The notes under the pieces are model-generated. The model ran no database searches. It was not told the DNA's origin and saw nothing but the letters and a program-made list of their open reading frames with translations. Below, piece by piece: positions 3,565-11,308 of a DNA stretch of 64,000 bases. Within the stretch, counting starts at the first letter, position 1. Every line of letters begins with the position of its first letter. The stretch lies in the NCBI GenBank assembly GCA_947625845.1, contig CANQQB010000005.1, positions 1 to 64,000 of the forward strand, in the 5' to 3' direction. Source of the stretch: an uncultured Oscillospiraceae bacterium (GTDB taxonomy: Bacteria; Bacillota; Clostridia; Oscillospirales; Oscillospiraceae). The translations under genes were made by a program, and so were the position numbers.

Positions 3565-3715
3565 GCCCGTTCCTCCCGTATCGTGCTGACTGGCAAACAG
3601 TATAACCTGTCCCGCTGTCTTTGGCAAGCAATTAGGAACTTTCAACAAATCTGTGGACAAGGAAAAGCGGTAAATGTTATAATGATAAATAATTGTTTTT
3701 TGTCGAAAGGGAGGC

Positions 3716-4477
3716 ATGCAGATGAAAAAGATCCGTACGCTGTCGCTGGCGCTGCTCATGGCGCTGGCCGTGAGCGTCTTTGTCGGCGGGCAGCGGGCGA
3801 TGGCGGAGGAACAGCCTCTGGTAGTAGGCGTTCGGGACGACATCGTGAATTTCGGCTTTCTCAACGAGACCACCGGCAAATACTACGGCCTGGAGATCGA
3901 CCTGGCCAAGGAGCTGGCCGATCGCCTGGACCGGGATGGGGTGGAATTTGTCACCGTGACCCCCACCACCCGTGAGGACGTGCTGCAAAGCGGCCAGGTG
4001 GATTGCCTCATCGCCTGCTACTCCATCAACGAGGAGCGGCAGGAGCTGTTCGATTTCTCCGCGCCGTACTATGACGACGACACGGTCTTCATGGTCCAGA
4101 CGTCCTCCTGCTTTGACCGGTGGATGGACCTGGGAGGCATGACCGTTGGTGTACTGGCCGGGTCCAACACCGGCGAGCTGGTGACGGAGACGATGAAAAA
4201 GTACAGCCACAAAGGCGTCCAGCTCCAGGAGGAAGACACCTATCAGGACCTCTCCGACGCCCTGGAGCGTGGCGATGTGGACGCGGTGTGCATGGACGGG
4301 TGCATTGCCCAGGCGTACATGAACGACGACCGGGTCTATCTGCCCGGCTCCCTGGCCACCCAGTACTATGGCGTGGCCACCCGGAAGGGCTCCGAGCTGA
4401 GCGAACAGGTGGCCGCGGCCGTGGACGACATGCTCGCCGACGGCACCGTCCGGGACTACATCGACAAGTGGGACTGA
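3716..4477 (+). CDS. Substrate-binding protein, amino-acid type PBPb fold, with signal peptide
   Basis: Signal peptide MKKIRTLSLALLMALAVSVFVGGQRAMAEEQ then VVGVRDDIVNFGFLNETTGKYYGLEIDLAKELADRL, typical of family 3 SBPs. No lipobox Cys. Confidence 0.85.
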   Translation: MQMKKIRTLSLALLMALAVSVFVGGQRAMAEEQPLVVGVRDDIVNFGFLNETTGKYYGLEIDLAKELADRLDRDGVEFVTVTPTTREDVLQSGQVDCLIACYSINEERQELFDFSAPYYDDDTVFMVQTSSCFDRWMDLGGMTVGVLAGSNTGELVTETMKKYSHKGVQLQEEDTYQDLSDALERGDVDAVCMDGCIAQAYMNDDRVYLPGSLATQYYGVATRKGSELSEQVAAAVDDMLADGTVRDYIDKWD

Positions 4478-4487
4478 GGGGGACGCC

Positions 4488-7400
4488 ATGAAAAAACTGA
4501 CGAAAAAAGCGATCGTCATGATCGTCATCGAGCTTATATGCCTCGTCGGCCTTGGCGTGTACCTCACTTCCATGCAGAACTATCTGTCCCTGAAGCAGCA
4601 GCGCCGGGACACGGAGCAGAAGATCACCCAGATACGGGAGCTGGTCCAGTCCACCGGGGAGTCCTCCCAGCGCCTGAAGCAGACCGTGGACGGCATCTAC
4701 CAGTCCAAGGCCATGAGCCTGGCGTACATGGTCCGGGAGAAGGTGGACCCGGAGCTGGACGACGACGTGATGCTGGGCTACCGGGAGCTGCTGGGCGTGG
4801 ACAACGTGTTCATCCTGGACATGGACGGCAACATCCTTTACAAGGCCCGGCCCGCCGGGACCGATTTCACCAGAGCCCGCTATAACCAGCTTCGCACCGT
4901 GTTCGGCGCGGACGAGCCCTCCCAGGCCTTCGAGGTGGACACGGGGGACAGCCAGCTTCGCTATTACGGCGCCATGATCGACCGGGGCCATATGGCCGTG
5001 GTGGCCCAGGACCCGGCGGAGCTGGACAGGCTGACGGAGGAGACGTCCTCCTGGAAGAGCGTGCTGGAGAACGTGAGCGTGGGTCTGGACGGCTATTCCT
5101 TCGTCATCTCCGCCAAGGACTATACCTTCCTGTACCACCCCGACGAAGCCCTGATCGGTCTGGACGCCCTGGACGCGGGCATCCGGGTGGAGGATCTGGA
5201 GGACGGCGGCTGCTGCTGGATGACCATCAACGGCGAGGAGCTGTACTGCGGCGTGGTCAAGGCCGACGACGTATATGTGCTGTGCGCGGTGACCAGGGGG
5301 GAGATCAACTCCGCCAACGCCATCACCGTCATCATCGTCCTGTTCGTGTTCTTCACCGTCATCACAGTCGTGGTGTTCTACGCCATCGTGATGCTGCGGG
5401 AGGAACAGACACGGGACAAGGCCGCCGCGGAGGAACAGCGGGCCGAGGACTATAAGGACGCAGGCGCGTTTCGCTGGCACCGGCGGGTAGGCCGGAAGCT
5501 GGTCACCGTGTCCGCCGTGGGCCTTATCTGCATCCTGGTCATATCCTACTACATGCAGACCCTCTATTGCATGAGCCGCGCGTCGCTGCAAAACACCCAG
5601 CGTCTGGAGGAAGTGGAGATGACCATGGGCCGGTATCAGGCCAACGTGGACATGCTCACCGACCAGTATAACAACAGCTACGTCAGCAAAGGCGAGACCG
5701 CCGCCTATATCCTGAGCCAGCGGCCGGACATTTTCCAGGACCGGGAGCGGCTGGCCGAGCTGAGCCGGGCCATCGGCGCGGAGTATCTGTTCGTCTTTGA
5801 CGACCAGGGCAAGATCGTCGCCACCGATTCGCCCTACACCAACTTCACCCTCAGCGAGGACCCGACCGAGCAGTCCTACGAGTTCCGGCAGCTATTGCAG
5901 GGCGTGCCCTATCTGGTCCAGCCGGCCCAGAAGGACGACGTGGGGGTATACCGCCAGTACGTGGGCGTCACCATCCGGGACGAGGACGGCCGCGCCAACG
6001 GCTTCGTGCAGGTATCCGTCCAACCGGAGCTGCTGGCCAACGCGGTGGAGCAGCTGAGCCTGAGCGCCGTGCTGCAAAATATCCGGGTTGGCGTCAACGG
6101 CTTTGCCTTCGCGGTGGACCGGGACACGAAAAACTTCATTTACTACCCGGAGGAACGGTATATCGGCCGCAGCGCCGCGGACTACGGCATGGGCGAGGAT
6201 ATGTTCCGGGACGGGGACAGCGGCTACCTCACCCTGGGCATGGACAAATATTACGGCGCGGCCATCGAGACGGACGGCGCGTTCGTATACGTGGTCATCC
6301 CGGCCGGCGAGCTGTTCGGGGACCGGGTGCTGCTCAGCCTGAGCACCACCGGCGTGAGCCTGGTGTGTCTGGCGCTGATGTGCCTGCTGCTGAGCCTGGA
6401 GCGCCGCCGGGACGATAAGAGCGAGCAGACCGGGGAAGAGACGCCCGCCGGACCTGACGGACCCATACCGCCGGCGGCCGGCGGAAAGCGGGCACGGATG
6501 GTGGACGTGGTCATGCCGGACGGGACCGTGAAAAAGACGGAGAGCGCCTTCAGCCGGTGGAGCAACCAGGCCCTGGGCTGGGGCGAGATGACCGCCGAGC
6601 AGAAGACCATGATGGTGCTGAAGGTGCTGCTGGGTCTTCTGGCGCTGTTCATCGTGGTGGCCGTGGCCAATAAGGAGGCCGCCTTTACCCGCACCAGCGT
6701 GTTCCGCTACGTGCTGGACGGCACCTGGACCAAGGGCGTGAACGTGTTCGCCGTCACCGCCAGCGTCATGATTTTGTGCGTGGTCAGCGTGGTGAGCATG
6801 CTGCTGCGCACCATCCTGAAGTTCCTGAGCCGGAGCATGGGCGCGCGGGGCGAGACGGTGATACGCCTGGTGAACAACCTGGTCAAATATGTGGCCGTGA
6901 TCGTGGCGCTGTACTTCTGCTTCGCCATGTTCGGCGTGGACACCGCCACGCTCCTGGCCTCCGCCGGCATCCTGAGCCTGGTCATCGGCCTGGGCGCGCA
7001 GGACCTGGTGAAGGACATCGTGGCCGGGCTTTTCATCATCTTCGAGGGTGAGTTCCGGGTTGGCGATATCGTGACCATCGGCGACTGGCGGGGCACCGTC
7101 GTGGAGATCGGCGTGCGCACCACCAAGATCGAGGAACCGGGCAAGAACATCAAGATCATCAACAACAGCGCCATCTCCAACGTGATCAACATGACCCGCA
7201 AGGAGTCCTTTGCCGCCTGCGACGTGGGCATCGAGTACGGCGAGAGCCTGGAGCGCGTCGAAGCCATCCTGGCCGAGGAGCTGCCCCATGTCCGGGAGCG
7301 GCTTCCCAAGATCACCGACGGCCCGTTCTACAAGGGCGTGTCCGAGCTGGCCGACTCCGGCGTGATCATCAAGATCGTGGCCCAGTGCGCCGAGGGCGAC

Positions 7401-7604
7401 CGCATCCAGATGGGCCGGGACCTGAACCGGGAGATGAAGCTGATCTTCGACAGGTACAAGATCAACGTGCCCTTCCCCCAGGTGGTGCTCAACCAGCCCG
7501 TGGAGTTCAAGGAGGCCACCGAGTGGCAAAAGCGCAGAGCGGAGCAGTTCGCCGAGGAACAGCGCGCTCTTGCCGAGGACCTGGAGACCACCGTCCAGTC
7601 CTGA
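4488..7604 (+). CDS. MscS-family mechanosensitive channel with two N-terminal extracytoplasmic sensor-like (Cache-like) modules
   Basis: 1038 aa. C-terminal MscS signature (TLLASAGILSLVIGLGAQDLVKDIVAGLFIIFEGEFRVGDIVTIGDWRGTVVEIGVRTTKI); N-terminal region has two TM-flanked periplasmic segments with related motifs (VSVGLDGYSFVISAKDYTFLYHP / IRVGVNGFAFAVDRDTKNFIYYP). Confidence 0.85.
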   Translation: MKKLTKKAIVMIVIELICLVGLGVYLTSMQNYLSLKQQRRDTEQKITQIRELVQSTGESSQRLKQTVDGIYQSKAMSLAYMVREKVDPELDDDVMLGYRELLGVDNVFILDMDGNILYKARPAGTDFTRARYNQLRTVFGADEPSQAFEVDTGDSQLRYYGAMIDRGHMAVVAQDPAELDRLTEETSSWKSVLENVSVGLDGYSFVISAKDYTFLYHPDEALIGLDALDAGIRVEDLEDGGCCWMTINGEELYCGVVKADDVYVLCAVTRGEINSANAITVIIVLFVFFTVITVVVFYAIVMLREEQTRDKAAAEEQRAEDYKDAGAFRWHRRVGRKLVTVSAVGLICILVISYYMQTLYCMSRASLQNTQRLEEVEMTMGRYQANVDMLTDQYNNSYVSKGETAAYILSQRPDIFQDRERLAELSRAIGAEYLFVFDDQGKIVATDSPYTNFTLSEDPTEQSYEFRQLLQGVPYLVQPAQKDDVGVYRQYVGVTIRDEDGRANGFVQVSVQPELLANAVEQLSLSAVLQNIRVGVNGFAFAVDRDTKNFIYYPEERYIGRSAADYGMGEDMFRDGDSGYLTLGMDKYYGAAIETDGAFVYVVIPAGELFGDRVLLSLSTTGVSLVCLALMCLLLSLERRRDDKSEQTGEETPAGPDGPIPPAAGGKRARMVDVVMPDGTVKKTESAFSRWSNQALGWGEMTAEQKTMMVLKVLLGLLALFIVVAVANKEAAFTRTSVFRYVLDGTWTKGVNVFAVTASVMILCVVSVVSMLLRTILKFLSRSMGARGETVIRLVNNLVKYVAVIVALYFCFAMFGVDTATLLASAGILSLVIGLGAQDLVKDIVAGLFIIFEGEFRVGDIVTIGDWRGTVVEIGVRTTKIEEPGKNIKIINNSAISNVINMTRKESFAACDVGIEYGESLERVEAILAEELPHVRERLPKITDGPFYKGVSELADSGVIIKIVAQCAEGDRIQMGRDLNREMKLIFDRYKINVPFPQVVLNQPVEFKEATEWQKRRAEQFAEEQRALAEDLETTVQS

Positions 7605-8134: not shown

Positions 8135-8689
8135 ATGCTTTTGCACGCAAAGAGCAAGATGCTCTCCATTCACAAGAAGATGGAGATCATGGACGAGGCC
8201 GACCAGGTGCTGTACACCGTGGAGAGCAAGGCCGTCTCCATCCATGACACCACGACCGTCCGCAACGCCGCGGGCGAGACCGTCGCCACCATCAAGCACA
8301 AGCCCATCTCCCTGCATGAGACCCACATCATCGAACTGGCCGACGGGGAGGAAGCGGAGGTCCGTACGGAGCTTTTCCACGTGATGCAGGACGTGATAGA
8401 CCTGGAGGGCCTGGGCTGGCAGATGCGGGGCGACATCCTCCAGCACAACTATGAGTTCGTCAACTCCCTGGGCGGCGTTCTGGCCCGGACTCACCAGAAG
8501 TGGGTGTCCCTGCACGACGTGTACTACATCGACGTGCTGGACGAGAGCCAGGTGGACAAGATCGTGTCCGTGTACGTGGCTCTGGAGCGTATCATCCGGG
8601 AGCGGGAGATCCGCCGGGAGAACGAGTCCGGCGTGATCGCCGCCGGCGCCGCCGCCGCCAGCCAGAGCAATAACACCCCCAACAACTAA
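8135..8689 (+). CDS. LURP-one-related/YxjI-like family protein
   Basis: MLLHAKSKMLSIHKKMEIMDEADQVLYTVESKAVSIHDTTTVRNAAGETVATIKHKPISLHETHIIELADG resembles the LURP-one fold repeat pattern. Confidence 0.65.
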   Translation: MLLHAKSKMLSIHKKMEIMDEADQVLYTVESKAVSIHDTTTVRNAAGETVATIKHKPISLHETHIIELADGEEAEVRTELFHVMQDVIDLEGLGWQMRGDILQHNYEFVNSLGGVLARTHQKWVSLHDVYYIDVLDESQVDKIVSVYVALERIIREREIRRENESGVIAAGAAAASQSNNTPNN

Positions 8690-8972: not shown

Positions 8973-9038
8973 TAATAAGGTCGCATCTTGATATTATGGC
9001 CATATCATGGTATAATAAGGCCATATCAAGGAGGTGCC
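8973..9038 (+). promoter_or_regulatory. Putative TA operator/promoter
   Basis: TTGATATTATGGCCATATCATGGTATAATAAGGCCATATCAAGG: repeated GGCCATATCA plus TGATAT/ATATCA dyads next to a TATAAT box. Confidence 0.55.
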
Positions 9039-9041
9039 GGT

Positions 9042-9302
9042 ATGCCCCATATCATTCCTATAAAAGACCTGAAAGACACCGCTTCCATTTCCAGAATGTG
9101 CCAGGAATCCAATGATCCGGTGTATATCACGAAGAACGGCTATGGCGATATGGTCATTATGAGCATGAAAGCCTATGAGGAAAAGATGCTGATGCTGGAT
9201 GTCTATACACGTCTGGCCCAGGCGGAGGACGATATTCACAGCGGGCAGGTCAAGGACGCCCGAACTGCTCTGAAGGCGCTGCGCGAAAAGTACGATGTAT
9301 AA
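9042..9302 (+). CDS. Type II toxin-antitoxin antitoxin, Phd/YefM family
   Basis: MPHIIPIKDLKDTASISRMCQESNDPVYITKNGYGDMVIMSMKAYEEK is typical Phd/YefM. Confidence 0.85.
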   Translation: MPHIIPIKDLKDTASISRMCQESNDPVYITKNGYGDMVIMSMKAYEEKMLMLDVYTRLAQAEDDIHSGQVKDARTALKALREKYDV

Positions 9303-9603
9303 GGTGACAATCAGTGATGCCGCCGAGGGGGACTTGGACGAGATCATCGGGTATATCGCAACTGTGCTTGCCAATCCCCAGGCCGCCGCTTCTTTGGCTG
9401 ACAAAATAGCCGCGTGTTCTGATGATTTGTCGCGTACGCCATATATGTATGGCCAGTGCCTGAATCTGAGATTGCAAGCACTTGGTTACCGGCGGGTCAG
9501 CATCCAGAACTACATCATGGTGTACCGTGTTGACGAGGAACGAAAGACCGTCTATATTCTCCGTTTCTTCTATGGCCCCAGCGACTACGAGCGATTGATC
9601 TGA
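9295..9603 (+). CDS. Type II toxin, RelE/ParE family
   Basis: Start overlaps antitoxin end by 8 nt; MYKVTISDAAEGDLDEIIGYIA...YRRVSIQNYIMVYRVDEERKTVYILRFFYGPSDY. Confidence 0.85.
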   Translation: MYKVTISDAAEGDLDEIIGYIATVLANPQAAASLADKIAACSDDLSRTPYMYGQCLNLRLQALGYRRVSIQNYIMVYRVDEERKTVYILRFFYGPSDYERLI

Positions 9604-9649
9604 CGATGGGAACTCTGAAGGGTGAGCAATGGTTAATGTCTAAGAAATA

Positions 9650-11308
9650 GTGCTAGCTTTGAATAACAAGGGGCGACCTCTCGGTCGCCCCTTGTCGGCT
9701 CTAAACAGGCACACAATGGTACTCGTTCTTAGCGTTTCTTTTTCTCGTATAGGCAGAAGAATATTCTCTCATATCATCTTTGGTAGGAATTGGAATATAG
9801 TCTTCAGGAACAACAAACACAACATATTCACAAGAGATACTGAATGCACCATTTACGATTCTTTTGCCAAGGGGCTGCAAACTGAGATGGCCGACGCGGT
9901 CGCCGACAGGCCCCGTGCCGTTACGGTGGCGCTGTTTGTTGGCAAGGTCATCCAGGACGACAAGGGCAATGAGCAGGTGATCGACCAGGATACCGCTTCT
10001 GCGATCCACTATGACATGATCATCAATGGCTATATTGACCGCAAAGGTATCCTGACCGATAAATATTATGAGGACAAGGCAAACGGAGAGTTGAAAGTAG
10101 CCGAGGAAGTGGCTGATTCTGCCGCATCGGTCATTGAGATCGTGGATTCCGTATACGACGCCCGCAGTACACAACCTGAGAACGCCAGGAGCAACAATGT
10201 GGAGTTGCGCGTGGACGAGGACAAGCTGGCAATCTTCGACATGACCATCTCCGGCATGGGAGCTGAACAGATTGCTACAAAACTGGAGGCCGACAATGTG
10301 CTGACCCCTACCGCCTATTGGATTGCAAAGGGTGTCAGGCGTCCTGGACGGGGGCAAAAGCAGCCGCCAACGCATTGGAGCGGTTCAAGTGTCATCCACA
10401 TTCTCACGGCTCAGGAATACTGTGGTGACATCATCAATTTTAAGACCTACTCCAAGTCCTACAAGCTGAAAAGGCGCATTGATAACGCCCCAGAGAATTG
10501 GGCGATTTTCAAAGACGTACATACCCCTATCATTGAACGTGCGGTGTGGGAGAAGGTGCAGGAAAAGCGCGGCCAGATCCGCAAGCGGAAAAACTCTCAA
10601 GGCCAAGTCAGTATGTTTTCCGGCCTGCTGGTCTGTGCCGACTGCGGCTGCAATCTGCACTACCACTTCAATCAGGGAAACCCGGAGATCAGGTATTTCA
10701 ACTGTTCCAACTATAAGGGCAATCGCGGGACCTGCACTTCGACACATTACATCCGCGTTGACTTTCTGGAACAAGTGGTGCTGGGCGAGATCAGGCGACT
10801 GACGAAGTTTGCCAGCAAGTACGAGACGCTGTTTGCCCAGGCCGTCATGGGCTGTTCCCGGCAAAACGCCGAGACGGAGCGCGAGACGATGAAGAAAGAA
10901 GTTTACGCGCTGCAAGCCAGAAATCGGGAGTTGGATGTGCTGTTTGAAAAGCTCTATGAGGACAACGTGGCAGGCAAGATCACCGACGAGCGATTTGCCC
11001 GCATGAGCCAAAAATACGAGGCGGAGCAACACGACCTGACCGCCAGGATCAAAGAGCTGAAAGACGCTATCAACAAGTCCGGGAATCAATCTGTTACAGC
11101 CGATATGTTCATCTCCACCGTCCGAAAGTACACCCGTGCGAAGAAGCTGACACCCCGTATGCTCAACGAGCTGATCCAGTACATAGAGGTCCATCAAGCC
11201 GAAAAGGTGGATGGCGTGTGGGAACAGAAGCTGACGCTCCACTACAACTGCGTTGGCGTCATCGACATCCCTGCTGAACTGCCCTCCCTTATCCCGATGT
11301 TTCAGTGA
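9650..11308 (+). pseudogene. Chimeric remnant: C-terminal part resembling a type III restriction Res subunit joined in frame to C-terminal part of a large serine recombinase
   Basis: No resolvase catalytic domain; ORF start overlaps a hairpin. Recombinase/zinc-ribbon part recognisable (SGMGAEQIATKLEADNVLTPTAYW...SGLLVCADCGCNLHYHF...YFNCSNYKGNRGTCTSTHYIR). Confidence 0.6.
9667..9694. terminator. Hairpin CAAGGGGCGACC-TCTC-GGTCGCCCCTTG downstream of TA operon
   Basis: Perfect 12-bp stem; no strong T-tract. Confidence 0.5.

Follow-up and report, generated by a model that had tools for sequence, protein, structure and literature searches.

The window, the whole 64,000-nucleotide stretch analysed here, is part of contig C5 (71 kb) in the draft genome (2.5 Mb, 78.5% complete) of an uncultured Oscillospiraceae bacterium, and it raises the question of why a gene for a secreted substrate-binding protein (SBP) should be followed directly by a gene for a mechanosensitive channel of the MscS family. 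The first-pass annotation had placed the SBP gene 10 nt upstream of a 1038-aa MscS protein; this is confirmed, with the SBP start shifted from 3716 to 3722, and a 10-nt spacer separates the SBP stop from the start of the co-directional channel gene (Table 1). As discussed below, this rabbit-gut Oscillospiraceae pair suggests a bacterial channel under the joint control of pressure and a nutrient signal.

Table 1. Features of the SBP-channel locus, in window positions
Feature	Position	Strand	Basis
Sigma-70-type promoter-like site, TGGACA-18-TATAAT with extended -10 TG	3654..3683	+	Consensus match only; just upstream of the SBP gene
Secreted SBP, SBP_bac_3 family, 251 aa	3722..4477	+	Pfam SBP_bac_3; relative of PEB1a (2v25); ribosome-binding site at 3710-3714
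Tandem-Cache MscS channel, 1038 aa	4488..7604	+	Three MscS Pfam domains; closest solved structures 3udc/3t9n
Extracytoplasmic module 1 (residues 30-278), divergent double-Cache-like	4575..5321	+	Between TM ~8-26 and TM ~279-297; hhalign, weak dCache_1, model, hydropathy
Extracytoplasmic module 2 (residues 358-622), dCache_1-like	5559..6353	+	Between TM ~338-356 and TM ~614-632; dCache_1 matches, Foldseek
MscS pore helix, beta domain and C-terminal domain (residues 797-993)	6876..7466	+	Pfam positions; 72% of residues 796-905 invariant in 16 homologues

The binding protein and its neighbourhood

The SBP matches Pfam SBP_bac_3 with 94.6 bits (5.3e-27; cut-off 26.4), and its N-terminus is a Sec-type signal peptide that ends in AMA/EE and has no lipobox Cys. 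A GGAGG at 3710-3714 lies 7 nt from the ATG at 3722 and only 1 nt from that at 3716, and because of this ribosome-binding site the start at 3722, which gives 251 aa, is the more likely one. The promoter-like site further upstream agrees with the consensus at 11 of 12 positions, in a region that holds five such sites against 1.0 expected. The dN/dS values of the SBP (0.15-0.36) indicate that it is under purifying selection.

The closest solved relative is PEB1a (2v25, "an aspartate and glutamate receptor"; E=2.3e-30). Five residues of the SBP, R38, R84, R106, D192 and Y216, are invariant in 19 homologues, and R106 and D192, the signature of an alpha-amino-acid pocket, align with the family's alpha-carboxylate Arg and alpha-amino Asp (R77 and D161 of LAO). 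Where LAO has D11 the SBP has R38, and the reversed charge fits a ligand with an acidic side chain; at the corresponding places PEB1a aligns with a Lys (for R38) and an Arg (for R84). On account of these pocket residues and the PEB1a alignment, our best guess for the predicted ligand is an acidic amino acid, most likely Glu or Asp. The structure model of the SBP (pLDDT 58) is too poor for pocket geometry and was used for fold assignment alone. Beside the predicted pocket lie four cysteines, C99 and C190 (invariant in the 19 homologues) and C95 and C194 (in 18), which possibly form a disulfide, metal or redox feature.

No ABC permease (BPD_transp_1) was found across the whole 71-kb contig, which bears out the annotation of an SBP without a permease gene, and the locus thus does not have the make-up of an ABC importer. 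The remaining SBP_bac_3 genes detected in this genome either lie no more than a few kb from an ABC permease or are fused, to such a permease or to a histidine kinase. Some of these proteins are composite: L039 (contig C9) is a single SBP-SBP-permease-ATPase chain, L042 (contig C54) is an SBP-permease-ATPase chain that resembles it, and L045 (contig C30) is an SBP-histidine kinase-receiver hybrid, all three in this genome (G000). The argument that an SBP with no lipid anchor must be held by the channel was discarded, as the permease-associated SBPs L038, L041, L043 and L044 of the same genome also lack the lipobox Cys.

The pair is flanked by a DUF5107/TPR protein gene on the opposite strand, and downstream of it are a small membrane protein and a LURP-one-related protein. 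At 8 of 19 loci the latter (LURP-one-related/DUF6593, 8135-8689) is present on the downstream side. Further along, positions 8988-11308 carry genes for a Phd-like antitoxin and a ParE-like toxin, followed by a serine recombinase in which the catalytic N-terminal domain was undetected, which may point to the remains of a mobile element close by.

A pair that co-occurs

A scan of GTDB genomes gave 15 channel loci, 14 in rabbit-gut Oscillospiraceae MAGs and one in a Clostridia MAG, with channel identities of 58-95%, and the SBP gene is directly upstream of the channel at all 15. Within the genus, 18 of 35 genomes contain the channel and the same 18 contain the SBP, while the remaining 17 have neither; these counts come from MAGs, many of them incomplete, so that single absences weigh little, and they are uncorrected for kinship. 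The matched presence and absence over the 35 genomes is nevertheless the solid part of the evidence. Each of the 19 SBP copies from the genus search adjoins a channel (one of the channels is truncated at a contig edge), including both copies in G210, a genome with two pairs, and for this reason the arrangement is not a chance one. The synteny with which the first-pass annotation had proposed to check its reading is therefore present in every relative of the clade that has the SBP.

Intergenic spacers measure 9-13 nt, except for a 13-nt overlap at L018 and L019. The pair is retained while the flanking genes have mostly been reshuffled: among locus pairs at 70-80% channel identity, upstream sequence is shared in only 6 of 45 and downstream sequence in 13 of 49, and the divergent Clostridia MAG (L023) keeps the pair at 58% identity for the channel and 49% for the SBP. 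Taken together, a common function of SBP and channel is well supported, although pairing within one genus could in principle reflect co-transfer. The correlation between SBP and channel distances (r=0.95) was dropped as evidence of interaction, being expected for any two co-inherited genes.

Two of the pairless genomes of the genus (G206 and G208) contain a short, plain MscS instead. A match to MscL is absent from eight genus genomes (G095, G164, G201-G205 and G207), all of which also lack the SBP-channel pair, and in G095, G164 and G201 the MscS beta-domain match is absent too.

A channel with two related ectodomains

The channel belongs to the MscS family by all three of its Pfam domains (MS_channel_2nd, 1.2e-17; MS_channel_1st, 3.1e-9; MS_channel_3rd, 2.2e-4), with scores of 37.1 bits for the TM2/3 helices, 64.1 for the beta domain and 22 for the C-terminal domain against cut-offs of 23.1, 20.2 and 21, respectively. 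Its closest solved relative is TtMscS (3udc/3t9n, E=8e-38), which is also matched by Foldseek from the channel model (3udc, E=8.9e-10). The AlphaFold2 model has low overall confidence and is good in the ectodomains only; its MscS part is poor because only 16 related sequences could be aligned. In the draft genome this is the sole MscS gene found, and an MscL gene was found as well.

Hydropathy places a TM helix at residues 8-26, an ectodomain, a TM helix at 279-297, a cytoplasmic linker, a TM helix at 338-356, a second ectodomain, a TM helix at 614-632 and a further linker ahead of the MscS TM region and cytoplasmic domains. The first-pass annotation saw related motifs in the two TM-flanked modules, and in profile-profile comparison the modules are related (hhalign probability 98.9, E=1.8e-17), the profile of either one retrieving the other. 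By these comparisons the modules are homologous, which shows an internal duplication.

That both modules are Cache-like, as the same annotation held, is true in part at the level of sequence. Module 2 matches Pfam dCache_1 (PF02743) with 41.1 bits (E=1.9e-10, full protein) and does so in 16 of 16 homologues (best 2.1e-10), whereas the match of module 1 is weak (16.7 bits, E=0.005; 10 of 16 homologues, best 1.8e-4), and neither reaches the curated cut-off of 45 bits. Structure prediction, which the annotation had named as a check, gives dCache matches: Foldseek searches with the whole channel model retrieve the dCache domains of Mlp37 (1.7e-8), Tlp3 (6.9e-8), PctA (1.1e-7) and DctB (1.3e-7), at TM-scores by target of about 0.3-0.44. 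In the model each ectodomain begins with a long helix and continues with two alpha/beta lobes, with pLDDT mostly 70-86. The predicted ectodomains thus have a double-Cache fold, with the reservation that Foldseek names no module in its alignments, so that module 1 is assigned through its homology to module 2 and its secondary structure (a long helix at 3-83, then alpha/beta). When the modules by themselves were searched as profiles against PDB sequences, no Cache matches appeared. The dCache_1AA domains that sense amino acids carry an R-x-W-Y core motif, and this was found in neither ectodomain sequence.

The architecture extends beyond the genus. Two other genera of the family have complete MscS proteins with two ectodomains each (L046, L047, L048 and L122), and their module 2 matches the module-2 profile of the window (a six-sequence search, in which E-values are relative only); a further genus has one of this type that is cut by a contig end (L049). 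At none of the four complete loci is an SBP gene adjacent, and the SBP is therefore not needed for the tandem-ectodomain architecture. At L122 (2587-6471; 990 aa, another genus) the frame that lies 9 nt upstream encodes no SBP but 300 aa that match FG-GAP weakly. The sensor channel is rare, since nearly all MscS proteins from a sample of 394 genomes of the order are short; the long MscS frames L179 and L180 (G081 and G662) were rejected as apparent artefacts, in which a short MscS gene seems to have been extended too far upstream.

Proposed gating by a loaded binding protein, its rivals and its parallels

Of the overall reading in the first-pass annotation, a ligand-gated channel to which the SBP delivers a solute signal, the SBP, the MscS core, the Cache-type ectodomains and the synteny hold up, and the signalling itself is what we propose here. 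We give an even chance to a two-gene sensory channel whose Cache modules serve as docking site for the loaded SBP, docking in turn altering how much tension the MscS pore needs to gate. The secreted SBP would bind glutamate, aspartate or another acidic amino acid; its ligand-closed form would dock on the membrane-anchored Cache modules; and the ensuing Cache movement would pass via the TM helices and the two cytoplasmic linkers to the MscS core. This movement would change, in one direction or the other, the tension needed to open the pore, and release of glutamate, other anions or osmolytes might thereby be tuned to the outside nutrient level.

Cache domains normally function as dimers and MscS pores are heptameric, and it is because of this mismatch that we propose the duplicated module as a pseudo-dimer within one chain, compatible with any subunit number. 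The tandem modules probably form such a pseudo-dimer around the heptameric pore, an idea that fits the presence of two modules in the window channel and in all four complete relatives. The fuller version, that gating is set by a separate, ligand-loaded SBP through tandem Cache modules and that the duplication settles the mismatch between sensor and pore, has in our view slightly less than an even chance. Since MscS-type channels export glutamate in other bacteria (MscCG and the Bacillus methanolicus MscS; PMC6110860, PMC12541555), a natural guess by analogy is that outside Glu or Asp feeds back on Glu or osmolyte release.

It is also conceivable, though rather unlikely, that the Cache modules sense their ligand directly, as in chemoreceptors, and that the SBP is a neighbouring but separate protein which, for instance, captures the same amino acid or lowers its free concentration at the surface. 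Most dCache domains do bind small ligands directly, and tandem-ectodomain MscS proteins without an SBP occur in genomes G110, G175 and G080; given the SBP-free channels of the two other genera, direct sensing is conceivable there, and the SBP could be an input confined to its own lineage. Against this stand the occurrence of SBP and channel in exactly the same genomes, always adjoining, and the missing R-x-W-Y core in both modules.

We regard it as improbable that the SBP is an ordinary part of an ABC transporter, serving a permease encoded elsewhere and placed by the channel through coincidence or shared osmotic regulation. This would agree with the mostly transport-related roles of SBP_bac_3 proteins and with the many BPD permeases of this genome, several of them with amino-acid SBPs, but not with a 71-kb contig free of permeases, with the persistence of the pair through turnover of its flanks, or with the 17 genus genomes that lack both genes even though several carry many other SBP-like candidates. 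Quite improbable, too, is a plain tension-gated valve whose N-terminal half is structural or a mechanical envelope sensor, as may be the case for the large N-terminal regions in MscK and YbiO. Within the channel, conservation is highest in the MscS core, which is also close to TtMscS, as such a valve would have it, yet the ectodomains are conserved as well (37-39% invariant positions, versus 3% in the first cytoplasmic linker), and a valve needs neither homologous Cache-like modules nor a dedicated SBP. Furthermore, MscL is already there as a valve, so the sensor channel need not be the main one.

If gating by a loaded SBP is correct, SBP-mediated signalling would have a pore as its output, a single channel would combine chemical with mechanical input, and a natural two-gene system would be at hand for direct tests of MscS ligand gating. 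No paper that combines "Cache domain", "MscS" and "mechanosensitive channel" was found in the literature searched. According to a 2022 review of SBPs (PMC9602780), the receptors that SBPs activate include chemoreceptors, sensor kinases, c-di-GMP enzymes and Ser/Thr kinases; nowhere does the paper use the word "channel". Such receptors, together with the two SBP-receptor systems discussed last, are the precedents on which the docking and gating proposal is founded.

Known channels share parts of the arrangement. TtMscS (3udc/3t9n) is homologous in pore and beta domain but has neither ectodomains nor an SBP partner. The ligand-binding domain of GluR0 is SBP-like. In GluR0, a bacterial channel of the glutamate-receptor kind (PMC13099474), it is fused to a K+ channel, whereas the window encodes its SBP as a protein of its own and has a pore of the MscS type. 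The glutamate exporters MscCG and B. methanolicus MscS are gated by tension or lipid, and sensor modules are not reported for them in the accessible parts of the papers (PMC6110860, PMC12541555). Among receptors, the dCache_1 cyclase STM1987 requires the amino-acid SBP ArtI for arginine sensing (PMC8846402); its output is a diguanylate cyclase, unlike the window channel, which ends in a pore, has two ectodomain modules per chain and adjoins its SBP gene. The closest parallel is GlnH-GlnX of Corynebacterium, in which GlnH, an SBP_bac_3 protein that binds Asp or Glu, signals to GlnX, a receptor with four TMs and two periplasmic domains (PMC9769921). This is the topology of the N-terminal half of the channel, which likewise has an SBP_bac_3 partner; GlnX, however, is all-helical and acts on the kinase PknG, while the channel has predicted Cache-type alpha/beta domains and carries its MscS pore on the same chain.
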